Source: Bordetella parapertussis (GTDB lineage Bacteria; Pseudomonadota; Gammaproteobacteria; Burkholderiales; Burkholderiaceae_B). Taken from it: DNA of 34,694 bases. A model generated the notes under the pieces. The model ran no database searches. It saw nothing but the letters and a program-made list of their open reading frames with translations, and had not been told where the DNA came from. The translations under genes were made by a program, and so were the position numbers. The first letter of the stretch is position 1. The number at the start of each line of letters is the position of its first letter. The stretch is from assembly GCA_945887835.1 (NCBI GenBank), contig CAMCZQ010000013.1, forward strand, positions 1 through 34,694. The letters run 5' to 3'. Positions 3,801 to 32,684 of the stretch are shown here, piece after piece.

Positions 3801-6473
3801 GTCAAAGTGCAAACCAGTCGTCGGCTCATCGAATAAAAATAAACTGCCTTTTTTGGCAAGTTTGGCTGTCGAAATACCGCTCCGCGCGGCTTCGGCTAAG
3901 TGGCCCGCGAGCTTTAAACGTTGCGCTTCGCCTCCTGAGAGCGTGGGCACAGGCTGGCCGAGCTTGACGTATTCAAGGCCCACATCTTCAAGTGGCGCTA
4001 GGCCTAACTGCACATCGCGCAGACCCTTAAAAAATTCAAGTGCTTCAGAGACCGTCATGTCGAGCACGGCATCGATCGACGCGCGTCGGCCCAGATGCTC
4101 GATTTCAACTTCACGTACTTCGGGTCTAAAGCGCTTGCCATCGCAATCTGGGCAACGAATATAAACGTCAGATAAAAACTGCATCTCGACGTGTTCAAAG
4201 CCCGTGCCACCACAGGTCGGGCAGCGCCCGTCGCCACTGTTAAAACTAAAGGTGCCCGCGGTGTAACCCCGCTCGCGAGCGACCGGCGCTTGAGAAAACA
4301 GTTTGCGAATCGGATCAAACGCGCCTACGTAGCTGGCTGGATTCGAGCGAGCCGTTTTGCCAATCTGGGCCTGATTGACCATGACGACCTCGGCCAACTG
4401 CTCGGCACCAAGAAGCCGGTCAAAGGCGCCGGGCGATTCGGTGGGTTTGCCCATGATCTTGAGCAAACCTGGATAGAGCACATCTTGGATCAAGGTCGAC
4501 TTACCCGATCCCGAGACGCCTGTGACGCAGACCAAACGACCGAGCGGGATTTCGATTGAAACATTTTTGAGATTATTGGCAGTCACGCCTTCAAGTAGCA
4601 GGCGAGGGGTGTTGGGCGCAACGGGTAAAGGCCGGGGGGCCTCGACCTTCATGCGACCGCCCATGTATTTGCCGGTTAAGGTTGTGGCGTCACGCAGTTC
4701 AAGTGGGGTGCCATCAAAGACGATTTGGCCACCACGCTCACCGGGCCCCGGACCCACGTCAATGACACGGTCGGCAGCGATCATGACTTGTGGGTCGTGT
4801 TCGACCACCACCAAGGTATTACCCGCATCACGTAAGCGATGCATCACTTCAACGACTCGATGAATGTCGCGTGGGTGCAGGCCAATTGAGGGCTCATCCA
4901 GCACAAACAAAGTGTTGACTAAAGACGTGCCTAGCGCAGTGGTCAAGTTGATGCGCTGCACCTCGCCGCCCGAGAGCGTACGGCTTTGTCGATCAAGCGT
5001 CAGGTACCCTAGGCCAACGTCACACAAAAACTTTAGTCGTGCACGCACTTCGGTTAACACCAGATCCATCGCGGCATCCAGGCCACCGTCAAACTTGAGC
5101 GTATTCGCAAAGGCGCGTAATTGAACGATCGGGGTCAACATCAAATCTTGAATCGATTTGTGTTCGATTTTCCAGAGCAGCGCGTCGGGCTTCAGGCGCG
5201 CGCCATGGCAGGTGGGGCAGGGGGTATAGCTGCGATACTTTGAGAGCAACACCCGCACGTGCATTTTGTACGACTTGGTCTCAAGCCAGTTAAAGAATTT
5301 TTGTACGCCGTACCATTGGGTTTTCCAGGCACCGCTGCCACCTTTCCAGAGTGGGTCGCCATCCAGCACCCAGTCTTTATGCTCTTGGGGCAAATGGCGC
5401 CACGGGGTGTTGATTGAAACGTTGGCACGTTTGGCGTACTTCAACATCTCTTCGTGGCACTCTTTGTAGCTTGGTGTTTGCCAAGGCTTCACAGCACCTT
5501 GCTCGAGCGTTTTGTTCTCGTCCGGGATGACTAAGCCAAAATCGATCCCGATGACACGACCAAAACCGCGGCAGGCCTCACAGGCGCCAAGCGGCGAGTT
5601 AAACGAAAACGTGCTGGGTAAGGGGTCGCTATAACTGATGTTGCAGTCAGCGCAGTGCAACTTGTCGCTGAATTTCCAGACCTCTGTGTCAGCGCCCTCT
5701 TGATCAATCGCATGCACGGCGATCAAACCATTGCCCATTTTCAAGGCAATATCAAAGGCCTCCATTACGCGTGACGCCTCAGCCCCTTCAAAGCGAAACC
5801 GGTCTTGCACCACGCGAAGCGTGCGTAATTGAGGCGATAGCATCGCTGATTTTTTTGAAGTCTTTTTGGCGGGCTTGGCTGAGACGGCAGCAGCGACTGC
5901 GTTTGGCTGCGTCGGGCTCTCGTCCGCATGCACACGGGTGTAGCCTTGATGGTCCAAAAAGCCCCGCACCTCATCTTCGGTAAAGTTGGCTGGGACTTGC
6001 ACGGGAAACGTCACGACCAAGCGTGGATTGCCGACCTGGGCAGCGCGTTGAGCCATGGCAGAAAAAATCGAGGCCGTGCTGTCGCGACAAACCGCTTGCC
6101 CACAGCCGCGACAAAATAAGTGCGCACCGCGCGCAAAAAGCAGCTTCAAATGATCATTGAGCTCGGTCATGGTGCCCACGGTGCTGCGTGAGCTGCGCAC
6201 TGGGTTGGTCTGATCAATCGCGATCGCGGGCAAGATGCCTTCAATGCGATCGACCACCGGCTTATCCATGCGGTCTAAAAACTGTCGCGCGTAGGGCGAA
6301 AAGGTTTCGACGTAGCGCCGCTGCCCCTCGGCGTACAACGTATCAAACGCGAGTGAACTCTTGCCCGAGCCGCTCACGCCCGTAATCACGGTCAAGTCGC
6401 CAGTGTTCAGGGTCAAGTCAAGATTCTTGAGATTGTTCTGGCGCGCGCCAGTAATGCGGATCGTTGGGTTCAT
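810..6473 (-). CDS. uvrA: Tandem (double-length) UvrA-family excinuclease ATPase
   Basis: This 1887-aa protein is about twice the usual UvrA length (around 940 aa) and consists of two complete UvrA-like halves. UvrA is the ATP-driven damage-recognition subunit of nucleotide excision repair. Four Walker A motifs of the type GVSGSGK(S/T) lie near residues 32, 653, 1051 and 1573, and four ABC signatures are present (LSGGEVQRI, LSGGEAQRL and two LSGGEAQRI). Both halves keep the zinc-finger CxxC pairs, for example CPTCGGTGFEHVEMQFLSDV and CPLCEGQGMRTLEMSFLPDI, and the UvrB-interaction/insertion region (STVGTMTELNDHLKLLFAR in half 1, STVATMTEIHHFLRLLYMK in half 2). The first half ends and the second begins near residue 1020. 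No stop or frameshift separates them, so this is a genuine fusion. It may act beside a normal single-length uvrA elsewhere. I see no LexA-like box in the 125-nt divergent region upstream. Confidence 0.96.
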   Translation of the reverse strand: MNPTIRITGARQNNLKNLDLTLNTGDLTVITGVSGSGKSSLAFDTLYAEGQRRYVETFSPYARQFLDRMDKPVVDRIEGILPAIAIDQTNPVRSSRSTVGTMTELNDHLKLLFARGAHLFCRGCGQAVCRDSTASIFSAMAQRAAQVGNPRLVVTFPVQVPANFTEDEVRGFLDHQGYTRVHADESPTQPNAVAAAVSAKPAKKTSKKSAMLSPQLRTLRVVQDRFRFEGAEASRVMEAFDIALKMGNGLIAVHAIDQEGADTEVWKFSDKLHCADCNISYSDPLPSTFSFNSPLGACEACRGFGRVIGIDFGLVIPDENKTLEQGAVKPWQTPSYKECHEEMLKYAKRANVSINTPWRHLPQEHKDWVLDGDPLWKGGSGAWKTQWYGVQKFFNWLETKSYKMHVRVLLSKYRSYTPCPTCHGARLKPDALLWKIEHKSIQDLMLTPIVQLRAFANTLKFDGGLDAAMDLVLTEVRARLKFLCDVGLGYLTLDRQSRTLSGGEVQRINLTTALGTSLVNTLFVLDEPSIGLHPRDIHRVVEVMHRLRDAGNTLVVVEHDPQVMIAADRVIDVGPGPGERGGQIVFDGTPLELRDATTLTGKYMGGRMKVEAPRPLPVAPNTPRLLLEGVTANNLKNVSIEIPLGRLVCVTGVSGSGKSTLIQDVLYPGLLKIMGKPTESPGAFDRLLGAEQLAEVVMVNQAQIGKTARSNPASYVGAFDPIRKLFSQAPVARERGYTAGTFSFNSGDGRCPTCGGTGFEHVEMQFLSDVYIRCPDCDGKRFRPEVREVEIEHLGRRASIDAVLDMTVSEALEFFKGLRDVQLGLAPLEDVGLEYVKLGQPVPTLSGGEAQRLKLAGHLAEAARSGISTAKLAKKGSLFLFDEPTTGLHFDDVARLMRAFRKLLGAGHTLLIIEHNLDVIRAADWVIDLGPEGGDTGGELIVSGSPEQVMAHPTSHTGAALRDYAVAMTPDAIGASMLDVLATDDPRQAARALREPAGATGNSSGRSLQTFLKEKRQAATIDILHAREHNLKNISVSIPHDKFTVITGVSGSGKSTLAFDILFNEGQRRYLESLNAYARAIVQPAGKPDVDAIFGIPPTVAIEQRTSRGGRKSTVATMTEIHHFLRLLYMKLGTQMCPQCQVSVEPQSADQIVARIMRDHKGQRIGLLAPLVTARKGFYTDLAKWAAGKGYTHLRVDDEFIGTAKWPRLDRFKEHTIELPVADLVVGTDNEAQLRECVRSALEHGQGVMSVVSSLDRLHANMSAKLDQTHFSVKRACPSCGTSFPEPDPRMFSYNSKHGWCHGCFGTGLKLQGFDEAQTGEETAWNAWFEGEATTCTSCQGARLNPISRAVLWRDKSIAELAGLAVSDAHTFFTALVLRGRDAEIARDILSEIRGRLQFMQEVGLGYLALDRAAPTLSGGEAQRIRLAAQLGSNMQGVCYVLDEPTIGLHPRDNRILLGALSRLEKNGNTLVVVEHDDDTIRRAEHIIDIGPGAGIRGGRVVAQGSLQDLMDAPESTTGHYLKHPLAHPLQPRRLVAKDTPMITVKGAKLHNLRHLTAHFPIGRLSVVTGVSGSGKSTLAREVLLDNLGAAVSLRADPQWHGCDSIEGWNAIDRVLEVDQTPIGKTPRSCPATYIGFWDDVRKQFADTQEARIRGWGAGRFSFNTGDGRCPLCEGQGMRTLEMSFLPDIKVPCDACSGARFNTDTLGVHMREKHAGAVLSLEVDDAIGYFAAHPKIRHPLQLMQDVGLGYITLGQPSPTLSGGEAQRIKLVTELAKARMTEGVITTGRASRLPHTLYVLDEPTVGLSMADVEKLIRVLHRLVEAGNTVVVIEHNLDIIAEADWLLDLGPEGGTGGGKLVIEGTPEQVMKVRAKSHTGEVLHEFMHRA

Positions 6474-6598
6474 GGTGCGATTTTAAGGCGGGTGCCAGAG
6501 TTCTTGCTTTCCAAACTAGCAATACCCCTAAAGCGGGTCCAAACCCTGTTGTTAGCGGTTTTAGAGTACTATTACAGGTTCCCTACCGGAGAATTGCT

Positions 6599-6730
6599 AT
6601 GGCTTCTGAAACAAAACGTACGCGCCGCAACACGCTCGAACGCCGTTGCTTAGGCAAGGCCTTCAAGCGCCTGTTCGTCAACGCCCCTAAAGGCGTGTTC
6701 AAAATGCTTGAAAAAGTCAAAAAAGCCTAA
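6599..6730 (+). CDS. Small, highly basic 43-aa protein, function unknown
   Basis: The ATG at 6599 is preceded by a good ribosome binding site (GGAGAA, 6588-6593) and the frame ends at TAA 6728-6730. It encodes 43 residues, from MASETKRTRRNTLERRCLGK to KMLEKVKKA, with 8 Lys, 6 Arg, 3 Glu and no Asp. The estimated net charge is therefore about +11. There is no signal peptide or membrane segment. The dense basic N-terminal half and amphipathic second half (AFKRLFVNAPKGVFKMLEKV) suggest nucleic-acid or ribosome binding, but I do not recognise a named family. It is a stand-alone unit between the divergent uvrA and the downstream catabolic operon, and a strong intrinsic terminator follows 31 nt after the stop. 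The signals make it very likely real, and a longer in-frame extension upstream (from 6464) is unlikely because it would lack a ribosome binding site. Confidence 0.75.
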   Translation: MASETKRTRRNTLERRCLGKAFKRLFVNAPKGVFKMLEKVKKA

Positions 6731-6761
6731 GTTTTATAGGGTCTTTTTTGGTGAGCTAAAG

Positions 6762-6794
6762 GCTCAGTCATGAAAATGACTGAGCTTTTATTTT
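6762..6794 (+). terminator. Rho-independent terminator of the 43-aa protein gene
   Basis: A perfect 10-bp stem GCTCAGTCAT / ATGACTGAGC (6762-6771 and 6776-6785) closes a GAAA tetraloop and is followed directly by TTTTATTTT. This is a classical intrinsic terminator on the plus strand, placed just after the small basic gene. Confidence 0.93.
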
Positions 6795-7009
6795 GGTGTG
6801 GCCAAACAGTTGGGCCTCATGTTGTCCACTTAAGCCGTTTCGCCATAGCCTGGCGCTTTTGAATGCCATTTTCCCCAGCGTACTGAATCGATCGCGCATC
6901 GGTTGGGTTTGTTGGGTGACAAGGGTTATCCCTAGGTGCCTCGTGGGCATTTTGCACCCACGCCGCGAGTGATAATCGATCAATCAATAAAACAAACGGA
7001 GATATCAGC
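6795..7009 (+). promoter_or_regulatory. 215-nt intergenic leader of the catabolic operon
   Basis: No gene is visible here. The stretch should carry the promoter and 5' leader of the operon starting at 7010. I find no convincing -35/-10 pair. TGATAAT (around 6970) could be a -10 element without a matching -35. A GTGGG (6943-6947) / CCCAC (6957-6961) inverted repeat lies upstream of it. The ribosome binding site of the next gene is GGAGA, just before 7010. Confidence 0.35.
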
Positions 7010-8065
7010 ATGAGCAGCTCAACAAGATGGGTAAAGCGTCCAGAAGGCTCAACCTGGGGCGACTTCGGACCCGATGATCAGCGCGGCCGCATTAACTTGC
7101 TGACCCCTGAAAAAATCAAACAGGGCGTGGCCGAGGTCGAGCACGGTCTTGCCTTTTGTTTGAGCCTGCCGCTTGATCTGCCTGGCGGCAATTTACTGAA
7201 CCCGCGCCGTTTTCCGCCCGTCATCCGTCCGACCCTACGCGACGGGCGCCCAAACATGAACTATCGTTTGTTTAGCGACAATGATCAGCACACAGATGTC
7301 ATCAGCGATGATCTGGTCGTGATGCATCTGCAGTACTCAACCCAATGGGACAGTCTGGCGCACGTTGGTTCGCTGTTTGATGCGAATGGCGACGGCATCC
7401 CTGAAGCCGTCTACTACAACGGCTATCGCGCCGGGAAAGATATTCAAGGTCCGACCGATGGAAAAGATGCGGGCGTGCCCCTACCCGGTGATCAGCGCAG
7501 CACCTCGAACGCGATTGCTCTGGGCATACAAAATATGGCCGAGTCTTGCGTACAAGGCCGCGGCGTGATGATTGATTTTCATGCGCACTTTGGCAACAAG
7601 CGTGAAAACATTAGTTACGACACCTTGATGCGCATCATGGAGCAAGACCAAGTGGTCGTTGAGAAAGGCGATATGGTTTGCCTGCATACGGGCTTTGCGC
7701 AGATGTTGATGGACATGAACGGCAAGCCCGATCTCAAGCTTTTAAATAATAGTTGCGCAGCCTTAGATGGTCGCGATAAAAAGCTGTTGAACTGGATCAC
7801 CGACAGTCAGTTGGTGGTGTTGATGGCCGATAACTATGCGGTTGAAGCGCATCCGGCAACGAGTCACATTGGCTGTTGCGCCACCTTGCCGATTCACGAG
7901 CATTGCTTGTTTAAGCTGGGCGTGCACTTGGGCGAAATGTTTTATTTGACACAGCTGGCGCAATGGTTGCGCAAGAATGGTCGCAACCGTTTCTTGCTGA
8001 CCGCACCTCCGTTACGCTTACCTGGTGCGGTGGGCTCGCCTTCGACTGCGGTGGCGACTGTTTAA
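7010..8065 (+). CDS. Cyclase-family (kynurenine formamidase-like) metal-dependent hydrolase
   Basis: This 351-aa cytoplasmic protein belongs to the cyclase family (PF04199), whose members hydrolyse amides, lactones or cyclic acids with a metal held by His/Asp residues. It is of the longer, roughly 350-aa type. The classical HxGTHxDxxxH metal motif appears in the variant form QWDSLAHVGSLFD (about residues 110-122), followed by YYNGYRAG. A second His cluster, IDFHAHFG, and a late AVEAHPATSHIGCCATLPIHEH complete a plausible metal site. The start ATG has a GGAGA ribosome binding site. The gene opens the operon and its stop overlaps the next start (TAATG at 8063-8067), so translation is coupled to the AtuA gene. 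The family is clear. The substrate is unknown, but its position suggests opening or hydrolysis of a cyclic intermediate in the same pathway. Confidence 0.82.
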   Translation: MSSSTRWVKRPEGSTWGDFGPDDQRGRINLLTPEKIKQGVAEVEHGLAFCLSLPLDLPGGNLLNPRRFPPVIRPTLRDGRPNMNYRLFSDNDQHTDVISDDLVVMHLQYSTQWDSLAHVGSLFDANGDGIPEAVYYNGYRAGKDIQGPTDGKDAGVPLPGDQRSTSNAIALGIQNMAESCVQGRGVMIDFHAHFGNKRENISYDTLMRIMEQDQVVVEKGDMVCLHTGFAQMLMDMNGKPDLKLLNNSCAALDGRDKKLLNWITDSQLVVLMADNYAVEAHPATSHIGCCATLPIHEHCLFKLGVHLGEMFYLTQLAQWLRKNGRNRFLLTAPPLRLPGAVGSPSTAVATV

Positions 8066-9420
8066 TGAAAGACGTCATCCGAATCGGTTCAGGTGCGGCG
8101 TGGTGGGGCGACCGCGTTGAACCCGCTGCGCTCAATGCCGAGAAAGGTCAGCTAGATTATCTGTGCTTTGAAACGATGGCCGAGGCGACTGTCTCGGCCG
8201 CTCAAGTGCGCGCACGGCGTGACCCTTCCTTTCCAGGCTATGACACCTATCTAGATGATCGGATGAAGGCGGTGTTGCCCGCTTGCATCAAAAACGGCAC
8301 CAAGATCATCACCAATCAAGGCTGGATCAATCCAGATGCCGCTGCCAAACGGATTGTGTATTGGCTGAATGAGTTTGGTTTTAAAGGCATCAAGGTCGCC
8401 TCGGTCAATGGCAGCTTAATTACCGAACACGTGCTGGATTTGACTGACGTGATTTTAGAAAATGGCCTACCCACTTCGACGTTGAAGTCGAATTTAATAT
8501 CGGCTGAAGTCTATCAAGGCGCCGAGCCGATTGTCGAAGCCCTGAAAGCGGGTGCCCAAATCGTGATAACAGGCCGTGTTGCCGACCCCTCAATTTTTAT
8601 GGCTCCGATGATGTATGAGTTTGGCTGGGATCCACTCGATCACGTCAAACTGGGTCAAGGTAATGGCATCGGTCACTTGCTTGAGTGCGGTGCGCAAGCG
8701 ACGGGCGGGTATTTTTCAGATCCGGGGTTTAAAGATGTGCCAGAGCCCTGGAACTTTGGTTTTCCGATTGCTGAAGTGAGTCGCGATGGCACTGCGGTCA
8801 TCACCAAAGTGGCCGGTACGGGCGGTGCGATTACGCTCGAAACGATTAAAGAACAGATGCTGTACGAAGTGCATGATCCCGCAAATTATCTGACCCCCGA
8901 TGTGGTGGTTGATTTCACCACCGTGCACATTGAGCAGGTTGGAGCAGATCGTGTCCGTGTCAGCAAAATTGGTGGAAAGCCGCGCACACCAACCTTGAAA
9001 GTCTCGCTTGGGTGTACCGAGGGTTTCATTGGCGAGGATATGTTTTTTTACGCAGGCCCGGGTGCCTTGCGCCGCGCTGAATTAGCCAAAAAAATTCTTG
9101 AAGAGCGCTTCAAAATCGTCAAGTTGCAGGCCGAAGAGATCAGAATTGATTACTTGGGCTTGAACGCCATTCACGGCGCAGCAACACCCGCTGATGCCCC
9201 AGAGCCTTATGAAGTGGCTGTACGTGTTGCCGCTCGCACTAAAACGCGTGAAGAAGCGGCTAAAGTGGGTCGTGAGATCGATGGAATGGCTGTGTCGGGT
9301 ATTGCCCACACGGGCAAACGGGTGCCTCATCAGGATCGCACCCGTGAAGTGATTGGCGTGTGGTCGTCACTGGTGGCACGCGAAAAGGTGTTCGCCTCTG
9401 TCAATTATTTTGTGAGCTGA
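8065..9420 (+). CDS. AtuA family (DUF1446) acyclic-terpene-utilisation-like protein, core domain
   Basis: This is a 451-aa protein starting at the ATG that overlaps the preceding stop; a longer upstream reading would run through the cyclase gene and is rejected. It is recognisable as DUF1446/AtuA by the N-terminal IRIGSGAAWWGDRVEPA, DYLCFETMAEATVSAAQ, the central ITGRVADPSIFMAPMMYEFG, and GNGIGHLLECGAQATGGYF. AtuA is encoded in the acyclic terpene (citronellol/geranyl-CoA) utilisation operon of Pseudomonas and is needed for growth on those substrates, but its chemical role is not settled. In Pseudomonas AtuA the core is fused to a C-terminal domain, while here that domain is the next gene. 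The genes around it (cyclase, PRISE reductase, thiolase-like, DUF35) support a role in degrading a cyclic or isoprenoid-like carboxylic acid. Genes for geranyl-CoA carboxylase are not seen in this window. Confidence 0.88.
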   Translation: MKDVIRIGSGAAWWGDRVEPAALNAEKGQLDYLCFETMAEATVSAAQVRARRDPSFPGYDTYLDDRMKAVLPACIKNGTKIITNQGWINPDAAAKRIVYWLNEFGFKGIKVASVNGSLITEHVLDLTDVILENGLPTSTLKSNLISAEVYQGAEPIVEALKAGAQIVITGRVADPSIFMAPMMYEFGWDPLDHVKLGQGNGIGHLLECGAQATGGYFSDPGFKDVPEPWNFGFPIAEVSRDGTAVITKVAGTGGAITLETIKEQMLYEVHDPANYLTPDVVVDFTTVHIEQVGADRVRVSKIGGKPRTPTLKVSLGCTEGFIGEDMFFYAGPGALRRAELAKKILEERFKIVKLQAEEIRIDYLGLNAIHGAATPADAPEPYEVAVRVAARTKTREEAAKVGREIDGMAVSGIAHTGKRVPHQDRTREVIGVWSSLVAREKVFASVNYFVS

Positions 9421-9423
9421 GCC

Positions 9424-9786
9424 ATGAAAGTCAAACTACAACATGTGGCGCACGCACGCTCTGGCGACAAAGGCGATACCTCAAATATTGCTGTCTATGC
9501 CTATGTGCCGGCGTTTTATCCCTTGCTCAAAGAGCAGCTGACTGCCGATAAGCTCAAAGCCTTTTACAAAGGGGCGATTAAAGGCCCAGTGACACGCTAC
9601 GAAGTTGAGAATTTGCACGCGATGAATTTTGTTGCGCAAGGGGCCTTAGGGGGCGGCGTCTCGAGAAGCCTTTGCTTAGACAACTATGGCAAGGCGTTGT
9701 CGGCCGCGATTCTTGGTTTTGAAATTGAAGTGCCCGAGGCATTGCGCTCTTCATTACGCGGCCAACATTTGCTGGCGAACACCTGA
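9424..9786 (+). CDS. AtuA C-terminal domain as a stand-alone protein
   Basis: This 120-aa protein starts 3 nt after the AtuA core stop. It carries the hallmark AHARSGDKGDTSNIAVYAY and later YEVENLHAMNFVAQGALGGG, both typical of the ferredoxin-like C-terminal domain of AtuA proteins. Splitting one protein into two adjacent, translationally close genes implies that the products form a complex. The start ATG at 9424 gives a complete domain, and no frame joins it to the upstream gene because the UGA at 9418-9420 is in the way. It has no signal peptide. No independent enzymatic activity can be assigned. Confidence 0.85.
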   Translation: MKVKLQHVAHARSGDKGDTSNIAVYAYVPAFYPLLKEQLTADKLKAFYKGAIKGPVTRYEVENLHAMNFVAQGALGGGVSRSLCLDNYGKALSAAILGFEIEVPEALRSSLRGQHLLANT

Positions 9787-9821
9787 TTGTTTATCAATAG
9801 AACTTTGCGTCTGACCTTGTG

Positions 9822-10907
9822 ATGAGAAAAAAACACACCATACTAATTGTCGGGGCGAGCGGCGTTGTGGGTGCAGCCGCCTTGAATCATTTTGCCTCGC
9901 TGCCCGACTGGAACGTGATCGCCTTATCGCGACGCTTTGTGAATTTGCCCTTTTTGGCACAACACGTCAGTGTTGATCTCACGGATCGCAAAGCCTGCGA
10001 GCAAGCAGCTACAGGCCTATCAGACGTCACGCATATTTTTTACGCGGCACTCTATGAGTTGCCCGAGCTTGTGGCGGGATGGCAAGATCCCAAACAGATG
10101 GCGGTGAACGAGGCGATGCTGCGCAATTTGCTTGATGCGCTCGCACCTGTCGCAAAAAAATTACGTCACATCACAATGATGCAAGGGACCAAAGCTTACG
10201 GCGGTCATGTCGAACCGGCGCGTGTACCAGCAAAAGAGCATTGGCCCCGCCATCCACATAAGAACTTTTACTGGTTGCAAGAAGATTTATTACGTGAACG
10301 GCAAACCAAAGCGGCTTGGACCTTCACAATTTTGCGGCCACAGATCGTGTTTGGTTATTCGGTATTTAGCCCGATGAATATCGTCGCGGCGATTGGTGCG
10401 TATGCAGCGTTGCAGCGTGAGCAAGGCTTGCCCTTAAGTTTTCCGGGGGGTGGGCGTTATATCAACGGTGCAAGTGACAGCCGTCTGATTGCACGCGTGG
10501 CTGAGTTTGCGGCGACAAACGAGATTGCAGCCAACGAAACCTATAACGTTGTGAATGGCGACGCACTGGTTTGGCATGATATCTGGGGTTCGATTGCGGC
10601 AAAGTTCAAAATGCCAGTGGGTGAGCCTGCGCCGCTCAGTCTCGCCGACAATATGCCTCAGCACGAGGCGCTTTGGGCGCAACTCGTCAATAAACATGAC
10701 CTCGCGTCCTTTACGCTGAGTGAAATTATTTCTAGCTCTTGGGAGTTTACCGACCGGGCGTTTGCCCACGGAGTTGAACATCCGGCCAACTCAGTGCTGA
10801 GTACGATTAAATTGCGTAAACATGGCTTCGATGATTGCTATGACACTGAAGAGTCTTTGCATGACTGGTTAGAGCTGATGCAAAAGAATAGATTGTTACC
10901 CCGCTAA
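9822..10907 (+). CDS. PRISE-like (progesterone 5-beta-reductase / iridoid synthase type) NAD(P)-dependent enone reductase
   Basis: This 361-aa SDR protein has an N-terminal Rossmann motif (VGASGVVGAAA, G11/G14/G17). Its internal motifs match the PRISE group: MQGTKAYGGH (K124) where plants have TGxKHYxGPF, NFYWLQEDLL (Y150) where they have NFYYxxEDIL, and RPQIVFGYSVFSPMN where they have RPxxIFGFSPxSxMN. PRISE enzymes reduce activated C=C bonds of enones and enals, such as progesterone or 8-oxogeranial. They are best studied in plants but occur in bacteria. The exact catalytic role of K124/Y150 is inferred by motif position. ATG 9822 is preferred over the GTG at 9819. The gene is 35 nt after the AtuA pair and 25 nt before the TctC gene, so it is most likely in the same operon. 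Its likely job is reduction of an unsaturated carbonyl intermediate. Confidence 0.8.
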   Translation: MRKKHTILIVGASGVVGAAALNHFASLPDWNVIALSRRFVNLPFLAQHVSVDLTDRKACEQAATGLSDVTHIFYAALYELPELVAGWQDPKQMAVNEAMLRNLLDALAPVAKKLRHITMMQGTKAYGGHVEPARVPAKEHWPRHPHKNFYWLQEDLLRERQTKAAWTFTILRPQIVFGYSVFSPMNIVAAIGAYAALQREQGLPLSFPGGGRYINGASDSRLIARVAEFAATNEIAANETYNVVNGDALVWHDIWGSIAAKFKMPVGEPAPLSLADNMPQHEALWAQLVNKHDLASFTLSEIISSSWEFTDRAFAHGVEHPANSVLSTIKLRKHGFDDCYDTEESLHDWLELMQKNRLLPR

Positions 10908-10932
10908 TACAAACGTTTTTACTGGAGTGAAG

Positions 10933-11925
10933 ATGAAAAGAATCAAAAACGCCGTCAAGTTTTTTGGATGCTCAGTGATTAGTGCGGCTGCGGCGTACCT
11001 CGCCTTACCTAGCGCATCAGCGCAAACGACGTTTGCGGACAGACCGATTCGCGTGGTCGTACCGTATCCTGCTGGCGGCACAACAGACTTGCTCGCGCGC
11101 GCAGTCAGCGGGCGCTTAGGTGAGTTGCTTGGGCGCACTGTTGTCATTGACAACAAACCGGGCGCAGGCGGCGTCATTGGCTCGCAGCAAGTGGCTAAGT
11201 CAACGCCTGACGGTCATACGCTGGTGTTTGCCAGTATTGCCTCGCACGGCATTATCCCTGCACTGCAAACTCCACCGCCCTATGATGCGGTGAAAGACTT
11301 TATGCCGATCACGTTAGTGGCTAGCACGCCCAACGTGTTGCTTGTGAATGTGAATCTGCCTGTCAAAAATGTGCAAGAGTTGATCGCCTTAGCAAAGGCC
11401 AAGCCCGGTACGGTTAATTTTGGCTCGACCAGCCACGGTGGTTCGCCTCACATGACGGGTGAGCTGCTTAAAACCATGGCGGGTATCGATATTGTCCACG
11501 TGCCCTACAAAGGCGGCTCGCCTATGTTGATCGATTTGATTGGTGGGCAGGTCGCGATGGGGTTTGATAATCTTCCGTCGTCAATGGCAAATATCCGTGC
11601 TGGTAAGGTGCGAGCCTTAGCGGTCACGACAACCACCCGTTGGCCCGGCGCACCCGACATCCCGACAATGAGTGAAGCTGGGGTGACAGGTTTTGACGTC
11701 TCGGCGTGGTTTGGCTTGTTGGCGCCTGCCGGCACACCACAGCCGTTAATTGATTTGCTCAGTAAGCACCTTATGGCGATCCTGCGTACCGATGCGATCA
11801 AGGCGCAGTTTTTAGAACTGGGTGCGTCGCCTGTGGGCGACACGCCGGCCGAATTCAAACGCTTCATTGAAATCGAGCGCGAAAAGTGGAGCAAGGTTGC
11901 TCAGACTAACAACATCAAACTTTAA
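10933..11925 (+). CDS. Tripartite tricarboxylate transporter receptor (TctC/Bug family)
   Basis: This 330-aa periplasmic protein has a signal peptide (MKRIKNAVKFFGCSVISAAA, cleavage after SASA before QTTFADRPI). The start ATG at 10933 sits 5 nt after GGAG (10924-10927), so it is chosen over the GTG at 10927. Family motifs are RPIRVVVPYPAGGTTDLLAR, VIDNKPGAGGVIGSQQVAKS, and HVPYKGGSPMLIDLIGGQVA. Bug receptors bind carboxylic acids and similar solutes for TctAB membrane components. No tctA or tctB is present in the window, which is common in Alcaligenaceae, where dozens of orphan receptors occur. Lying inside the catabolic operon, it probably captures the operon's substrate. The ligand cannot be read from sequence. 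Confidence 0.93.
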   Translation: MKRIKNAVKFFGCSVISAAAAYLALPSASAQTTFADRPIRVVVPYPAGGTTDLLARAVSGRLGELLGRTVVIDNKPGAGGVIGSQQVAKSTPDGHTLVFASIASHGIIPALQTPPPYDAVKDFMPITLVASTPNVLLVNVNLPVKNVQELIALAKAKPGTVNFGSTSHGGSPHMTGELLKTMAGIDIVHVPYKGGSPMLIDLIGGQVAMGFDNLPSSMANIRAGKVRALAVTTTTRWPGAPDIPTMSEAGVTGFDVSAWFGLLAPAGTPQPLIDLLSKHLMAILRTDAIKAQFLELGASPVGDTPAEFKRFIEIEREKWSKVAQTNNIKL

Positions 11926-11928
11926 TGA

Positions 11929-13074
11929 ATGATGAAACAAGCATTTATTAAGGGTGTCGGTAACACCGCCTTTGGCCGGCTTGAGGGCCGCAATACCCTT
12001 GATTTGATGGCTCAGGCGGCCAAGGATGCTTTGACCGCGGCCGGTTTGGTTCGCGCAGAAATCGATGGCGTACTCTGTGGCTATGCCACGACGATGCCGC
12101 ATTTGATGTTGGCTAATTTGTTCTGTGAGCGTTTTTCTTTACGCCCCCAATACGCCCACGGCATGGCGGCAGGGGGGGCAACCGGTGCGGCAATGCTGAT
12201 GCTTGCGCGCGAACTGGTGCAAAGCGGGCGTTGCCGTAACGTGTTGGTGGTGGCCGGTGAAAACCGCTTGAGTGGCCAGACACGAGATAGTTCGATTCAG
12301 ACGCTCGCGCAAGTGGGTCACGCAGATTTTGAAGTGCCCAATGGGGCCTCGGTGCCCGCCTATTACGGGTTGATGGCTTCGCGCTATATGCATGAGGCTG
12401 GCGTCACCCGCGCAGACCTCGCTGAATTCGCGGTACTGATGCGTAACAACGCGCGTCGCCATCCAGACTCGCATCTCACACAAGAGATTTCTGTTGCCGA
12501 TGTGTTGGCGTCAAAGCCGATTGCTGAGCCTTTGCATCTGTTGGATTGTTGTCCGCTCTCTGACGGTGCGATGGCCTTGGTGGTGTCGTCTGAACCGGGT
12601 TCAGGCGTTCGCGTCAAAATGCTTGGGGCAGGCCAGGCTCACTTTCATCAACACTTAACAGCGTTGCGGGATGTGATGGACACGGGCGCTGCTGCGGCTG
12701 CGAAGATTGCGTTTAAAGAAGCAGGCCTCACGATCAAGGACATCGATTATTTAGGCGTCTACGATTCCTTCACGATTACATTGTTGATGCTTCTCGAAGA
12801 AGTCGGTTTCGCGCCTCGGGGGCATGCGGCAGAACGTGTGAGACAAGGTGATTTTTCGCAACTCGGCACTGTGCCCTTAAATACGCATGGCGGTTTGTTA
12901 TCGTTTGGACATTGTGGTGTGGCGGGTGGTATGGCGCACACCGTTGAGGCGTACCGGCAGTTCGTCGAGCAAGCGGGGCCGCGTCAGGTCAAGACACCCA
13001 CGCATGCTTATATTCATGCAGACGGTGGCGTGATGTCGTCGCACGTGAGTTTGCTACTGTCGCGCGAGGGTTAA
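11929..13074 (+). CDS. Thiolase-like protein without the nucleophilic Cys; possible Ltp2-like retro-aldolase
   Basis: This 381-aa protein has the SCP2-thiolase fold. By alignment with the canonical paralogue in this window (31522-32682), the nucleophile Cys of GACASGG is Gly (G83 in GGATG), and the C-terminal catalytic Cys of GVACTV is replaced by Ser (VMSSHV). The HDCF motif reads VYDSF, with Tyr at 278. SCP2-like aldolases such as Ltp2, which cleave steroid side-chain CoA thioesters together with a DUF35 partner, are thiolase-like proteins of this kind, and a DUF35 gene follows 3 nt downstream here. The His of the GH motif remains (FGHCG). Thiolysis is therefore unlikely, and a retro-aldol or non-catalytic function is more plausible. 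The gene follows tctC by 3 nt. ATG 11932 is an equally possible start. Confidence 0.85.
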   Translation: MMKQAFIKGVGNTAFGRLEGRNTLDLMAQAAKDALTAAGLVRAEIDGVLCGYATTMPHLMLANLFCERFSLRPQYAHGMAAGGATGAAMLMLARELVQSGRCRNVLVVAGENRLSGQTRDSSIQTLAQVGHADFEVPNGASVPAYYGLMASRYMHEAGVTRADLAEFAVLMRNNARRHPDSHLTQEISVADVLASKPIAEPLHLLDCCPLSDGAMALVVSSEPGSGVRVKMLGAGQAHFHQHLTALRDVMDTGAAAAAKIAFKEAGLTIKDIDYLGVYDSFTITLLMLLEEVGFAPRGHAAERVRQGDFSQLGTVPLNTHGGLLSFGHCGVAGGMAHTVEAYRQFVEQAGPRQVKTPTHAYIHADGGVMSSHVSLLLSREG

Positions 13075-13077
13075 CAG

Positions 13078-13464
13078 ATGACGATCAACGCACACGCGAG
13101 CGTTTCACTGGCCCAACCTTATGTTGAGGGTTTGGCCGAACAGCTGCTGCGTTATCAGCACTGTGAGTCATGCGCTAGCGCGCAAACTTTTGCGCATGAT
13201 GCTTGCCAGTTTTGTGGTGCAGAGACGCTGTCCTGGCGCACGTCAAGTGGCCACGGACGCGTTCTCGCTGTGACCGTCGTCGCACGTGCGCCCTCAGATT
13301 ATTTTCGTTCGCTGGCGCCTTACACCTTGGTCGTTGTAACGCTTGACGAAGGTGCGCGAGTGATGGGACACGCTGCAGCGGGCATACAAATCGGCCAAGC
13401 AGTGATTGCGACATTTTTTAAACATCTGGATCAAACGCTGGTGCGTTTCGAGCCCCATCCCTAG
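13078..13464 (+). CDS. DUF35 protein: zinc-ribbon plus OB-fold partner of the thiolase-like protein
   Basis: This 128-aa protein has an N-terminal rubredoxin-like zinc ribbon with four cysteines (C29, C32, C43, C46 in CESCASAQTFAHDACQFC), followed by an OB-fold (GRVLAVTVVARAPSDYF, PYTLVVVTLDEGARVMGHAA). DUF35 proteins pair with SCP2-type thiolases or aldolases and help bind the acyl-CoA. The gene starts 3 nt after the thiolase-like stop, as is usual for such pairs. Its stop at 13462-13464 is followed, in the same frame, by the acyl-CoA synthetase remnant. Confidence 0.87.
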   Translation: MTINAHASVSLAQPYVEGLAEQLLRYQHCESCASAQTFAHDACQFCGAETLSWRTSSGHGRVLAVTVVARAPSDYFRSLAPYTLVVVTLDEGARVMGHAAAGIQIGQAVIATFFKHLDQTLVRFEPHP

Positions 13465-14275
13465 TATCTCTCTCGCGGCATCACCCGGAATCTTTATCGG
13501 ATCAATCCAAGTCGTGAAAAAGTGCAAGGCTTAAAAAGCTACGCATCACTCGCTCAGTTGCCCGAAGTGCCCGAGCTTGTGTTGATCGTGGTGGCGGGCG
13601 ATAAGGCTGTTGAGGCGGTTGAGGATTGCGCGGCGCGCGGTGTCAAGTCAGTGGTGGTGATGGCCTCGGGCTTTGCGGAAATCGGCCCTGAAGGCCGTGC
13701 TACGCAGCAGCGCATGACTGATGCAGGGCGTGCGACGGGTATGCGCATCTATGGCCCCAATACGCATGGCCTGGCAAATTTCGGCACGGGTGCGATTGCA
13801 GGCTTCTCGACTATGTTCATTGAACGTCCGCCCCAAGATGGGCCCGTTGCGGTGTTGAGCCAAAGTGGCGGCATGAGTGCGATGGTGTACGGCTTGCTGC
13901 GCGAGCGTGGCATCGGTGTGCGTCACGTACACGCCACCGGCAATGAAGCTGACGTCACTGTGGCTGAAATGGCCTGGGCGATTGCACATGACCCTGAGAT
14001 CAAACTCATGTTGCTGTCACAATTTTTGAATCACAACGCAAAAAACTAACAGAAATGAAGGTCAGTCACGAAGGGATTATTGTGGCTGCGATGAGCCTAT
14101 GGATGTCAAAGCCTTTGCGCAGGTCGCGGTATCGGTCGGCCGTCTGAGTCTGATGATGCAGGCTGGGCCAAGTATCGCGTCGTTGGACCTAAATCCCGTC
14201 ATGGTGGGAGCGGTCGGCGAGGGGGCTGTGGTGGTCGATGCCTTGCTCGAACGAGGGCCGACTGGATCAAAGTGA
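13465..14275 (+). pseudogene. Remnant of an ADP-forming acyl-CoA synthetase (CoA-binding / ligase and ATP-grasp)
   Basis: Two fragments of one enzyme class are seen. The first (13465-14049) begins without a start codon right after the DUF35 stop with RNLYRINPSREKVQGLKSYA and carries VMASGFAEIGPEG, RIYGPNTHGLANFGTG and GPVAVLSQSGGMSA, typical of the CoA-binding and ligase domains. It is lost after ALMLL-type sequence (IKLMLLSQFL) and ends at a stop. The second (about 14087-14275) is the C-terminal end of an ATP-grasp domain: DEPMDVKAFAQVAVSVGRLS and SLDLNPVMVGAVGEGA, then stop. The N-terminal first part of the CoA domain and most of the ATP-grasp middle are missing. An intact enzyme is about 700 aa, and only about 250 aa remain. 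A GTG at 13522 could still start a partial peptide, so expression is possible, but catalysis is not expected. It would have supplied acyl-CoA activation for the operon. Confidence 0.85.
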
Positions 14276-14294
14276 TGTACGGCGCGCTAGAAGA

Positions 14295-14310
14295 TCAGGG
14301 AAATCCCTGA
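14295..14310. promoter_or_regulatory. Palindrome TCAGGGAAATCCCTGA upstream of the ABC importer operon
   Basis: A 7-bp perfect inverted repeat with a 2-nt centre (TCAGGGA-AA-TCCCTGA) lies 38 nt upstream of the -35 box of the candidate promoter at 14348. It could be an operator for a dimeric regulator, or a weak hairpin ending the upstream operon; there is no T-run after it. No regulator gene is adjacent. Confidence 0.35.
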
Positions 14311-14347
14311 AATATTCTTAGTCCGAAGCGTTACACTGATGGTTTCA

Positions 14348-14376
14348 TTGACGCACTCGCCACAGTGCGGCAATAT
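14348..14376 (+). promoter_or_regulatory. Candidate sigma-70 promoter of the dipeptide-type ABC importer
   Basis: TTGACG (14348-14353) and CAATAT (14371-14376) are separated by 17 nt, which is the optimal spacing. The match lies 35 nt before the ATG of the substrate-binding protein gene, whose ribosome binding site is AAGGAA (14400-14405). It follows the pseudogene and would give the importer its own transcript. Confidence 0.6.
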
Positions 14377-14411
14377 CCTAGACAATCAACACTCTATTTA
14401 AGGAAAACACC

Positions 14412-15983
14412 ATGCGTCGCCCACTGCTTGTCGCTGCGATTGCCGCCGCGATGCTCTTGCCGAGTTTAGGCACAGCTAAAACCTTTAAATGGACCAGTCA
14501 GGGCGATATCCTGACACTTGATCCGCATTCGCAGAACGAAGGCTTGAACATCGCAGCGAACTTGTGGGTGTATGACCCACTGTTGAATTACAACGAAAAG
14601 TTTGAGGTGGTCCCAGGGTTGGCAACATCTTGGGAACAAATCAATCCCTCTTTGTGGCGCTTTAAATTACGTGCGGGAGTAAAGTTTCATGATGGTTCTG
14701 CGTTCACCGCAGACGACGTCGTATTCTCGCTTAAGCGTGCCATGGCACCCTCGTCGCAATTCAAGTCATATGTTGCTGGCGTCAGTGATGTCAAGGCGAT
14801 CGATCCCTTAACCGTTGAGATCTCAACCGCCGGACCAAACCCCGTGTTGTTGCGCCAGTTGCCTACGCTAGGCATGATGAGCAAAGCGTGGTCAGAAAAA
14901 AACAACGCGACCTTGCCTCAGGATTTCAATAAGAAGGAAGAAAGCTTCGCGGCGCGTAACGCGATGGGTACAGGCCCTTACATGTTGAAAACGCGAGAGG
15001 TCGACATCAAAACGGTCTATGTTGAAAATCCGAACTGGTGGGGTAAGCCGACCAAGCAGGGTAACGTGACTGAAATTGTTTACACACCGATTAAGCAAAA
15101 CGCCACGCGCACGGCGGCCCTGTTATCTGGTGAAGTGGATTTTGTATTGGACCCTGCAGCGCAAGATATCGAGCGCCTGCGTTCTCAAGTGAAAGTGTTG
15201 GATGGTAACGAAAATCGTACGATTTATATTGCGATGGATGTGAAAAGCCCTGAGTTGAAGTACAGCAACATCAAGGGAAAAAATCCACTGACTGACGTTC
15301 GGGTGCGCGAGGCACTTTATCGTGCGATTGATATTGAAACAATCAAAAAGGCCGTCATGCGTGGCATGTCGTTGCCCACTGGCGCGATGATTTCACCCCA
15401 AGTCAACGGGTACTCAGAGGCGCTCGGCCAACGCGTGCCTTATGACTTGGTCAAGGCTCGCGCCTTATTAAAAGAGGCTGGTTACGACAACAATCTTGAG
15501 TTTACGATTGATTGTCCAAATAACCGTTACATCAATGACGAGGCTATTTGCCAAGCTGTTGTTGCCATGTGGGCGAAAATTGGCGTTAAAACCAAGCTCA
15601 ACGCCATGCCGCGGGCAACGTTCTTTCCAAAGGTTGCTAACGGCGACACCAGTATCTATTTGTTTGGTTGGGGCGTCCCCACTTTTGATGCGTACTACAC
15701 ACTCGAGTCCCTGATTCGCAGCAAGGGTACGGGCGCTGCAGGTGCCTTTAACTATGGTGGTTATTCAAATCCCAAAGTTGATGAGCTGATCGATGCGGTC
15801 AAAACAGAGATCAACGATGCCAAACGCACCGCGATGATTCAAGAAGCCTTCACGATCCATGCAAAAGAATTCGGGACGATCCCCTTGCATGATCAGGTGA
15901 TCCCTTGGGCGATGAAGAAAAACATCGACATCAAGCATCAACCGAATAATCGTCCGGTTGTAGAAAGAATCACCATCAATTAA
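14412..15983 (+). CDS. ABC importer periplasmic substrate-binding protein, peptide/nickel type (SBP_bac_5)
   Basis: This 523-aa protein has a cleavable signal peptide (MRRPLLVAAIAAAMLLPSLG, cleavage after GTA) and the DppA/OppA-type fold: DILTLDPHSQNEGLNIAANL, then LNYNEKFEVVPGLATSWEQI, and KFHDGSAFTADDVVFSLKRA. The ATG is preceded by AAGGAA at 14400-14405. Members bind di- and oligopeptides, but also glutathione, opines, sugars or other solutes, so the ligand is open. It heads a complete five-gene importer operon (binding protein, two permeases, two ATPases). A short hairpin (16000-16019) follows its stop, a usual arrangement for keeping binding-protein mRNA more abundant than the rest. Confidence 0.94.
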   Translation: MRRPLLVAAIAAAMLLPSLGTAKTFKWTSQGDILTLDPHSQNEGLNIAANLWVYDPLLNYNEKFEVVPGLATSWEQINPSLWRFKLRAGVKFHDGSAFTADDVVFSLKRAMAPSSQFKSYVAGVSDVKAIDPLTVEISTAGPNPVLLRQLPTLGMMSKAWSEKNNATLPQDFNKKEESFAARNAMGTGPYMLKTREVDIKTVYVENPNWWGKPTKQGNVTEIVYTPIKQNATRTAALLSGEVDFVLDPAAQDIERLRSQVKVLDGNENRTIYIAMDVKSPELKYSNIKGKNPLTDVRVREALYRAIDIETIKKAVMRGMSLPTGAMISPQVNGYSEALGQRVPYDLVKARALLKEAGYDNNLEFTIDCPNNRYINDEAICQAVVAMWAKIGVKTKLNAMPRATFFPKVANGDTSIYLFGWGVPTFDAYYTLESLIRSKGTGAAGAFNYGGYSNPKVDELIDAVKTEINDAKRTAMIQEAFTIHAKEFGTIPLHDQVIPWAMKKNIDIKHQPNNRPVVERITIN

Positions 15984-16043: not shown

Positions 16044-17033
16044 ATGTTTGCTTTTATTTTGCGCCGCTTGATACAAGCCGCGGGCGTCTTGCTTGCGGTT
16101 GCGCTTCTTGCTTTCGTGCTCTTTCAGTACGTGGGCGATCCGGTCATGATTATGTTGGGGCAAGAGGGGACACCTGCAGAGCGTGATCTGCTTCGAAAAG
16201 ATTTAGGCCTGAATGATCCAGTGATCGTGCAGTTCTATCATTTTTTGACTAACGCGATTCAGGGCGATTTTGGGCTGTCGTTGCGACAAGGTCAAAAGGT
16301 CTCGACCTTGCTGCGGGAACGCTTGCCCGCTACGCTAGAACTCTCGATTGCAGCCGCTTTGATTGCGTTGCTGGTGGGCTTGCCCTTGGGCGTGTATACC
16401 GCGTTAAAGCGCCATGGCAAGTTGTCGCAAGCGCTGTTGGCTTTTTCCTTGTTGGGCGTATCTTTGCCAACATTTTTAATCGGGATCTTGTTGATCTTGA
16501 TTTTTTCGGTGTCGTTGGGTTGGTTGCCTAGCTACGGTCGTGGTGACACGATCAAGCTTGGCTGGTGGACAACGGGGTTGCTGACCAAAAGCGGTTGGAC
16601 GCATCTTGTGTTGCCGGCCGTGACTTTATCGTTGTTTCAAGTCGCCCTGGTTTTGCGTTTGGTTCGCTCTGAAATGCTCGAGGTCTTGCGCACGGATTAC
16701 ATTAAGTTCGCCCGCGCACGTGGCTTAACCAGACGGGCCATTCATTTTGGGCATGCCCTGAAAAACACGCTTGTGCCGGTGATCACGATCATGGGGCTGC
16801 AGTTAGGTGGCATCATCGCTTTCGCGATTGTCACTGAAACCGTCTTTCAGTGGCCTGGCATGGGGTTACTGTTTATTCAAGCCGTGCAGTTTGCTGATAT
16901 CCCTGTGATGGCGGCTTACCTGTGTTTGATTTCTCTCATTTTTGTGTTGATTAACCTGACCGTTGATTTGTTGTATTTTGCAGTCGACCCGCGCTTAAGA
17001 GCCGGCTTAGGCAAACACTCGGGTGGGCACTAA
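16044..17033 (+). CDS. ABC importer permease, DppB type
   Basis: This 329-aa inner-membrane protein starts with a hydrophobic helix (MFAFILRRLIQAAGVLLAVA) and has further membrane helices, for example LLAFSLLGVSLPTFLIGILL. It includes the EAA loop (DYIKFARARGLTRRAIHFGH) that contacts the ATPase. The N-terminal FQYVGDPVMIMLGQEGTPAE is typical of DppB-type permeases. Its TAA shares bases with the next start (TAATG at 17031-17035), so it is translationally coupled to the DppC-type gene. Confidence 0.94.
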   Translation: MFAFILRRLIQAAGVLLAVALLAFVLFQYVGDPVMIMLGQEGTPAERDLLRKDLGLNDPVIVQFYHFLTNAIQGDFGLSLRQGQKVSTLLRERLPATLELSIAAALIALLVGLPLGVYTALKRHGKLSQALLAFSLLGVSLPTFLIGILLILIFSVSLGWLPSYGRGDTIKLGWWTTGLLTKSGWTHLVLPAVTLSLFQVALVLRLVRSEMLEVLRTDYIKFARARGLTRRAIHFGHALKNTLVPVITIMGLQLGGIIAFAIVTETVFQWPGMGLLFIQAVQFADIPVMAAYLCLISLIFVLINLTVDLLYFAVDPRLRAGLGKHSGGH

Positions 17034-17947: not shown

Positions 17948-17955
17948 GCCGCCTG

Positions 17956-29107: not shown

Positions 29108-29108
29108 C

Positions 29109-30251: not shown

Positions 30252-30363
30252 TTTGTTGACTCCGGGTTGATATTTGGTTTTTAATCAGACCTACTGTGTT
30301 TTTCGCTTATTTAGGCTGATGCTGATACAAAACTCTACTATGATTTTTTACAAATAAACACCC

Positions 30364-31158: not shown

Positions 31159-31519
31159 TCTTTTGCACTCGAAAGGTGGGTGTGGCGGGGCCTGTTGGCT
31201 CGGCCACGGTGGTGGGGACGGCAACAACACGGTCGCTCAACTGATCGCCGTCTTCGGGCAAAAAGCGGCCGGTGACACGAAAGCCGTTGTCCAGATCAAA
31301 GACGCCCACGTGATACATGCCGTCGGCCTTAAAACGTAAAGGCGGCTTGCGCACAGTCGTCCAGCTCACGAGCTTACCAACGCCGGCAATTTGTACTGGG
31401 CTCATCTCGCTGGCCAAGCATTTCGCGCAGGTGTTAATGCAAGCTGCATCCAAGGTGCCGCATTTGGCGCATTGGTGAAACGTCAGCATCTCTGGCTTGA
31501 AGAGGGTTGCGTTCGACAT
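31151..31519 (-). CDS. DUF35 protein (zinc-ribbon and OB-fold), partner of the canonical thiolase
   Basis: This 122-aa protein has a zinc ribbon (C17, C20, C31, C34 in CAKCGTLDAACINTCAKC) and OB-fold strands such as GKLVSWTTVRKPPLRF and YHVGVFDLDNGFRVTGRF. It follows the thiolase gene by 2 nt and overlaps the crotonase by 8 nt. As in other SCP2-thiolase operons, it is expected to form a complex with the thiolase at 31522-32682. Confidence 0.88.
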   Translation of the reverse strand: MSNATLFKPEMLTFHQCAKCGTLDAACINTCAKCLASEMSPVQIAGVGKLVSWTTVRKPPLRFKADGMYHVGVFDLDNGFRVTGRFLPEDGDQLSDRVVAVPTTVAEPTGPATPTFRVQKNV

Positions 31520-31521
31520 GA

Positions 31522-32682: not shown

Positions 32683-32684
32683 GA

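Follow-up and report, generated by a model that had tools for sequence, protein, structure and literature searches.

What compound is broken down by the products of a compact gene cluster in Bordetella parapertussis, and by what chemistry? The cluster occupies 7010-14272 on the plus strand of a window of 34,694 nucleotides (the whole stretch of DNA analyzed here: contig CAMCZQ010000013.1 of assembly GCA_945887835.1, positions 1 to 34,694). It encodes, in order, a cyclase-family protein, the AtuA core, a separate ferredoxin-like AtuA domain (AtuFd), a PRISE reductase, a TctC-type binding protein, a thiolase-like protein with its OB partner, and what is left of an acyl-coenzyme A (CoA) synthetase. 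An initial annotation had read these genes as a possible operon for hydrolytic ring opening, enone reduction and C-C cleavage of a cyclic or isoprenoid-like acid. We find that the gene set is conserved in relatives, beyond chance, and we give a slightly better than even chance to the view that these genes form a conserved catabolic operon with associated transporters, whose substrate would be an isoprenoid-like carboxylic acid or lactone, branched or alicyclic.

Results

Gene assignments in the window were made from open reading frames, sequence and Pfam profiles, and they agree with the genes, order and spacing first described for 7010-13464. The cyclase-family gene (PF04199; 7010-8065; 37.8 bits, cut-off 23.1), for a predicted metal-dependent hydrolase, is followed by that of the AtuA core (PF07287; 8065-9420; 475 bits, cut-off 22.8, profile positions 1-436 of 437), whose ATG begins on the final base of the stop codon of the cyclase gene. 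Then come AtuFd (PF23544; 9424-9786; 104 bits), the PRISE reductase (PF22917; 9822-10907; 53.9 bits, cut-off 27), a TctC/Bug-type periplasmic binding protein (PF03401; 10933-11925), an SCP2-thiolase-like protein (PF22691 and PF00108; 11929/11932-13074), an OB/DUF35 protein (PF01796; 13078-13464; 46.5 bits) and the remnant of a nucleoside diphosphate-forming acyl-CoA synthetase (13465-14272). Measured from ATG starts, the intergenic gaps are -1, 3, 35, 25, 3 and 3 nucleotides; with alternative GTG starts, at 9819 and 10927, two of these gaps would be 32 and 19 nucleotides.

Conservation of the gene set

Are these genes kept together elsewhere? A PRISE search of 121 family genomes matched 15, from which 18 neighborhoods were fetched, and a scan of a named collection with a PRISE alignment gave at least 557 confirmed relatives, of which the best 80 were kept and their loci scored for the other genes at an E-value of 1e-6. 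The PRISE is at least 65% identical in 28 of these 80 loci, several of which come from near-identical species, so that they are not 28 independent cases. AtuA and AtuFd are each present in 24 of the 28, a TctC-type protein in 22, OB in 20, the thiolase-like protein in 19, the synthetase in 18, the cyclase in 17 and an IclR regulator in 10, and a family-5 substrate-binding protein (SBP5) adjoins the cluster in 7. The loci without AtuA are L044, L053, L061 and L069, and two of them, L044 and L061, end at or near PRISE. When only the 18 loci of at least 14 kilobases (kb) are counted, AtuA is found in 16, thiolase in 17, OB in 17, synthetase in 15 and cyclase in 13. The other 52 of the best 80, with lower PRISE identity, have in the stretch covered AtuA in none, thiolase in 6, OB in 4, synthetase in 3 and cyclase in 1; outside the best 80, a PRISE of about 43-44% identity accompanies an AtuA of 38-39% at three loci (L028, L029 and L031). 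The search for the gene order with an intact synthetase that the initial annotation had proposed thus found both a co-conserved cluster and an intact synthetase in relatives.

Among the 121 family genomes we counted pairs of genes at most 15 kb apart: 6 of PRISE and AtuA against 0.31 expected, 3 of PRISE and cyclase against 0.13, and 4 of AtuA and cyclase against 1.16, a weak excess; the expectation takes random places in a genome of 4.2 megabases, and the pairs are not independent, as three of the PRISE-AtuA and all three of the PRISE-cyclase pairs come from one genus. Chance adjacency is ruled out by these proximity counts and the co-occurrence in the best 80 loci. The AtuA rows next to PRISE group together on a tree of 47 such rows, where adjacency to PRISE takes 4 changes and shuffles average 15.0.

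How is the set arranged? The Alcaligenaceae, represented by Sheuella, Jezberella and uncultured relatives, have cyclase-(IclR)-AtuA-AtuFd-PRISE-(TctC)-thiolase-OB-synthetase-peptide transporter, with a Liv transporter upstream in some. Other Burkholderiales (Limnohabitans, Polaromonas and other assemblies) show Liv transporter-cyclase-IclR-thiolase-OB-synthetase-(TctC)-AtuA-AtuFd-PRISE-TctC, in loci that vary in completeness; the Polaromonas locus L056 has in addition an acyl-CoA dehydrogenase, a short-chain dehydrogenase/reductase (SDR) and a two-subunit CoA transferase. At three loci with AtuA at 64% identity (L134-L136), where PRISE and cyclase are absent, the order is IclR-thiolase-OB-TctC-synthetase-TctC-AtuA-AtuFd; two of these loci also have an SDR and an acyl-CoA dehydrogenase. 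This core recurs, with AtuA on the opposite strand, at L129 and L131, from two of the 13 genomes with AtuA at least 77% identical, and on a Comamonas endophytica plasmid. The core also reaches the alphaproteobacterium Methylobacterium aquaticum, where a plasmid carries thiolase-OB-synthetase-TctC divergent from TctC-AtuA-AtuFd-SMP30-TctB-TctA-Liv-IclR. Identity to the window proteins is here 75% for AtuA, 56% for thiolase, 57% for synthetase (over the remnant) and 40% for OB, and, compared with their counterparts in the Burkholderiales relatives, the Liv components reach 61-73% identity and IclR 50%.

Smaller groupings also recur. Variovorax paradoxus and Microvirga lenta have cyclase and PRISE together with thiolase and OB, a cyclase-family gene stands with PRISE and IclR in Sinorhizobium, and TctC-AtuA-AtuFd occurs without the other genes in several genomes, with an adjoining LysR in Comamonadaceae OTU4NAUVB1. 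This last unit looks like a device for import and CoA-free cleavage of a hydroxy-carboxylate. The set is modular, a core with accessory genes rather than one fixed operon. Named isolates with most of the set are Sheuella amnicola NBD-18 and Jezberella montanilacus, and the fresh-water life of the hosts is taken from record titles and species names. As to what is imported, the nearest solved relatives of TctC include 2dvz and 5oei as well as terephthalate-binding proteins, and the LivK of relative L060 finds its closest solved structures mostly among binding proteins of amino-acid type; neither comparison names a ligand. At the edge of the cluster of one close relative (L047, 2-6851, 5' of the cyclase) we saw by eye aldehyde dehydrogenase- and sulfatase-like genes and what looks like a complete TctC-TctB-TctA transporter, where L045, L049, L051 and L052 have instead a uvrA-like frame upstream.

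The AtuA pair

What reaction might the AtuA pair catalyze? In the window AtuA is split into proteins of 451 and 120 residues, and a 622-residue AtuA at L153 fuses the core and the ferredoxin-like domain. The AlphaFold model of AtuA (predicted local distance difference test score, pLDDT, 64; predicted template modeling score, pTM, 0.72) has PDB entry 9evf as its sole Foldseek match at an E-value of 0.001 or under (3e-16), and a second structure aligner gives the same entry a Z score of 23.5 (root mean square deviation 3.7, 291 aligned residues, 16% identity), with the next match at 5.2. The title of 9evf is 'Citramalate lyase - ADP - pyruvate complex', and 'AtuA family protein' is among the molecule names of 9erq. 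The predicted AtuA core structure matches the citramalate lyase fold, and because of this match the split pair is probably an acetate-releasing C-C lyase. The likeness to the citramalate lyase CmlA of 9erq and 9evf is one of core fold, the two cores being only 16% identical in sequence. The ferredoxin-like protein found no sequence match in the PDB, and we found no paper in the open-access literature that describes 9evf or 9erq.

Family PF07287 formerly bore the name DUF1446. In PMC4682846, a DUF1446 gene of enterobacteria adjoins that of methylaspartate ammonia-lyase, and the fate of citramalate in the tested strain is called unclear; the placement beside methylaspartate ammonia-lyase agrees with a citramalate lyase role. 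PMC4847356 lists AtuA, as characterized or tentatively identified, as an acetate lyase of the Atu pathway. The initial annotation had recognized one retro-aldolase-like pair, the Cys-less thiolase and OB proteins, and that pair stands; given the fold match and the acetate-lyase entry in the latter paper, however, AtuA is itself a predicted C-C lyase, and there would be two candidate C-C cleaving units rather than one.

The thiolase-like and OB proteins

None of 25 sequences of the thiolase-like protein shows a Cys at residues 76-80, where by eye we placed the nucleophile site (those of L062 and L113 have a Cys at residue 75), so the Cys-less thiolase-like/DUF35 pair of the initial annotation is upheld. 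A standard thiolase is ruled out, since the nucleophilic Cys is absent. Tyr277, within a Y277-D-S-F motif, and His327 are invariant in the 25 sequences, and Ser279 is present in all except the two most distant rows. In the OB partner, a zinc ribbon of C29, C32, C43 and C46 is invariant in 12 sequences, with a zinc-ribbon profile score of 21.1, below the cut-off of 23.2. Solved-structure relatives of the thiolase-like protein include two lipid-transfer proteins: 9myr, which its YDCY motif leads us to identify with Sal, and 6ok1, which we take to be Ltp2. The catalytic positions given in PMC12329534 are Tyr302/Cys304/Gln352 in Sal and Tyr294/His296/Tyr344 in Ltp2; measured against these, the window protein has Tyr277/Ser279/His327 at the equivalent positions and differs from both. 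The Sal/Shy and Ltp2/ChsH2 systems resemble the window pair in joining a Cys-less thiolase-like protein to a DUF35/OB protein with a zinc ribbon, and in keeping the Tyr of the YDxF motif. They differ from it in the second catalytic residue, which is here Ser279, with His327, and the operon has no adjoining hydratase gene.

The PRISE reductase

All 14 PRISE sequences compared share, without variation, the glycine motif, R38-R39, K125 and Y151. A profile built from seven relatives matches, over the whole length, structures of progesterone 5-beta-reductase and iridoid synthase (best E-value 4.7e-61). We take K125 and Y151 to be the catalytic residues of the plant PRISEs, with whose solved structures their positions align. 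The window protein retains the catalytic Lys and Tyr, and with its PF22917 match this sustains its first naming as a PRISE reductase. It shares with progesterone 5-beta-reductase and iridoid synthase the Arg pair, the Lys and the Tyr as well as the whole-length match; it differs from the plant-type enzymes in being bacterial and part of a catabolic operon. Plant PRISEs reduce enones, according to PMC11643720.

What of the company kept by other PRISE genes? Branched, isoprenoid-like acids are indicated, because PRISE relatives adjoin an HMGL-like lyase, CoA transferases and an acyl-CoA carboxylase (L032), or lie near a fused AtuA and carboxylase subunits, an Atu-like set (L164). Further PRISE loci were noticed in passing. 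The genome of the window itself has a second, distant PRISE (L037, G000:C178:976-2019, about 31% identical) flanked by TctC genes, and on one alphaproteobacterial contig (L073) a pair of PRISE genes, separated by about 2 kb, occupy opposite strands. On a Sinorhizobium americanum plasmid (L143), one stretch holds PRISE, cyclase, IclR, a carboxymuconolactone decarboxylase family protein, a 3-keto-5-aminohexanoate cleavage protein and a fumarylacetoacetate hydrolase, another neighborhood of PRISE with a lyase.

The cyclase and the synthetase

The chemistry of the cyclase is the least certain in the set. The canonical metal motif of PF04199 is HxGTHxDxPxH; the same region reads QYSTQWDSLAH in the window protein, with just two canonical residues left, the Asp and the final His, and it is for this reason that we hold the chemistry least certain. 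The QYSTQWD....H motif is invariant in 18 sequences. The nearest solved chain, 5ibz (E-value 6e-34), is uncharacterized. In some related clusters the cyclase is replaced by SMP-30, of a lactonase family, and we infer that the two share one role. Three genomes (G081, G063 and G095) have AtuA-AtuFd-SMP30-TctC-PRISE together; their SMP-30 shares about 85% identity with that of L031, and in the stretch covered there neither a thiolase nor OB nor a synthetase was found. A second locus of G063 (L030, 8969-19899) has on one strand, without AtuA, PRISE-TctC-SMP30-like (30%)-synthetase-two dehydrogenase-like genes-thiolase-OB-TctC, possibly a third version of the pathway.

The synthetase was described at the outset as decayed, and it is indeed a remnant with three internal deletions. 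Compared with the intact gene of L046 the window is short of about 0.13, 0.99 and 0.20 kb (summed from alignment ends), and the pieces, at about 13465-14016, 14010-14096 and 14090-14272, are in different frames. Intact synthetases of 698-725 residues are found in L044, L046, L047 and L049. Could the gaps be an artifact? The overlaps at the junctions are 5, 10 and 13 nucleotides, short for an assembly error, and the gaps look more like biological deletion than misassembly, to the extent that a draft genome of 292 contigs and 86.6% completeness allows. The seven intact genes have ratios of nonsynonymous to synonymous substitution (dN/dS) of 0.011-0.167 against two close relatives, L046 and L047, and are under purifying selection, a measure that bears on the recent past rather than on today.

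Surroundings of the operon

A strong terminator-like hairpin of 15 pairs with a T-rich tail lies 5' of the operon at 6757-6790 on the plus strand. The region has 10 terminator-like sites against a shuffle mean of 10.7, hence no excess, and promoter-like sites are likewise about as frequent as in shuffles; an Rfam scan of 6300-14500 gave no match at the gathering score. A small basic frame of about 43 residues was seen by eye at 6601-6732, just 5' of the operon and before the hairpin. Downstream, also on the plus strand, are the SBP5 of a peptide-type ABC transporter (14412-15983) and, from translations read by eye, its permeases and ATPases, two of each (16044-19972); the order of these genes is matched in L047 and L049. 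Farther along, at 25691-34208 on the minus strand, a second catabolic cluster was noted by eye, with a Liv-type ABC transporter, an enoyl-CoA hydratase, an AMP-dependent synthetase, an SCP2-type thiolase that retains its Cys (GACASGG), and a small frame where an OB-type protein is expected.

Discussion

What pathway might these proteins form? Uptake would be by TctC, Liv or peptide-type transporters. The cyclase-family hydrolase may open a lactone-like ring, the role that the SMP-30 lactonase would have in related clusters; the PRISE would reduce a conjugated enone with NADPH; the synthetase would form the CoA ester; the thiolase-like/OB pair might break a C-C bond as a retro-aldolase, with no Cys acyl-enzyme; and the split AtuA/AtuFd lyase might cleave a tertiary 3-hydroxy acid with release of acetate. 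No order of steps is implied by this listing. The operon would thus extend the TctC-AtuA-AtuFd unit by a hydrolysis, the reduction of an enone, activation with CoA and a further C-C cleavage. From the initial annotation we retain the co-conserved catabolic cluster, the PRISE with its Lys and Tyr and the Cys-less pair; ring opening by the cyclase stays conjectural, and the role given to AtuA has changed.

Several observations weigh against a single operon with these functions. The model behind the AtuA assignment is middling, with Foldseek TM-scores (template modeling scores) of 0.49 and 0.48, and the sequence similarity of AtuA to 9erq is weak (E-value 0.0018, or 0.00013 with a profile). The cyclase model has a pLDDT of 45, and its function is assigned from family and neighborhood. 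The synthetase, broken in the window, was also not found in the Jezberella locus L062, nor was a TctC in the Sheuella locus L049. The initial annotation made its reading depend on co-occurrence of the genes in relatives, and they do co-occur, as with AtuA in 24 of 28 loci, but of the 121 family genomes 13, the window's included, have an AtuA at least 77% identical, and PRISE adjoins it in just 3 of these; the other 10 lack it there. In two genomes of the same genus (G108 and G060), which gave no PRISE match at 1e-10, cyclase-SBP5 and TctC-AtuA-AtuFd-TctC are kept apart. Of 300 genomes sampled evenly from the order, 11 had a PRISE at 1e-90 or better, and the cluster is at none of the 12 places other than the window, some flanks being cut; one of these places (L155) has Liv, IclR and the synthetase, and another (L153/L164) has a fused AtuA with carboxylase subunits further along.

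Might two or three independent small pathways simply lie together by chance? One could picture TctC-AtuA-AtuFd for an imported hydroxy-di/tricarboxylate, the cyclase with the peptide-type transporter for a second compound, and PRISE with thiolase, OB and synthetase for a third. The separation in G108 and G060 fits such a patchwork, as do the solitary LysR and AtuA-AtuFd-TctC of Comamonadaceae OTU4NAUVB1 and the 52 of the best 80 PRISE loci that lack AtuA in the stretch covered. Yet the full set is kept in two gene orders, that of the Alcaligenaceae and that of the other Burkholderiales, and AtuA, thiolase, OB, synthetase, IclR and Liv stay together across classes, so that we judge a patchwork unlikely, though worth keeping in mind. 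On the AtuA tree G108 and G060 branch beside the PRISE-bearing Alcaligenaceae, inside a larger, mostly PRISE-bearing group, which suggests PRISE loss in these two, with the caution that support is weak at several forks and that near-copies exaggerate clustering of this kind.

Two further possibilities concern the organism and the substrate. With its CoA synthetase broken by three internal deletions, the operon might be decaying and already without function in this organism; the seven other genes are nevertheless intact with low dN/dS against L046 and L047, and a different synthetase could act in trans, so that we think this improbable. Even less probable, in our estimation, is a pathway for steroid or bile-acid side chains, in which the thiolase-like/OB pair would be the equivalent of Sal or Ltp2 and the PRISE a steroid 5-beta-reductase. 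The lipid-transfer relatives 9myr and 6ok1 and the match to progesterone 5-beta-reductase structures invite such a reading; the catalytic positions given for Sal and Ltp2 in PMC12329534 differ from those in the window, and no ring-degradation genes were noticed in the neighborhoods read, no genome having been searched for such genes.

We therefore return to the proposed operon for an isoprenoid-like acid or lactone, branched or alicyclic, and ask how new it is. The Atu pathway of Pseudomonas and Thauera resembles it in having an AtuA family protein with a ferredoxin-like domain and in its branched-acid logic, and some AtuA clusters (L056, L135 and L136) share an acyl-CoA dehydrogenase and an SDR with that pathway. 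In contrast to the Atu pathway, AtuA is split in two in the operon, and cyclase, PRISE and thiolase/OB are present instead. By Pfam the operon has no geranyl-CoA carboxylase (AtuC/AtuF) and no AtuE hydratase, the rest of the genome not having been searched for them; with no carboxylase or hydratase in the operon, the full Atu pathway is ruled out as its content. The initial annotation knew of no characterized pathway with this exact set, and we likewise found no description of it in the open-access literature. Each part comes from a known family; what appears to be new is the combination, together with the predicted AtuA chemistry. More speculatively, and with doubts that outweigh our confidence, the locus could represent an undescribed class of pathway, one that joins a plant-type PRISE to two chemically different, non-thiolytic C-C cleavages in the degradation of terpenoid-like lactones in fresh water. 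The split AtuA pair of citramalate-lyase fold would make one of these cleavages, on a free tertiary hydroxy acid, and the Cys-less thiolase/OB aldolase, with its Tyr/Ser/His site, the other. The AtuA cleavage is possibly nucleotide-dependent, because 9evf was solved with ADP and pyruvate.

What would these findings mean for the families involved? They offer a testable role for three poorly understood bacterial families, namely AtuA, the bacterial PRISEs and the Cys-less thiolase/OB pairs. Genes for 'acyclic terpene utilisation' gave 128 matches in 68 of the 121 family genomes. If AtuA is a citramalate-lyase-type enzyme, many genes so named may be unrelated to acyclic terpenes, and could be renamed.

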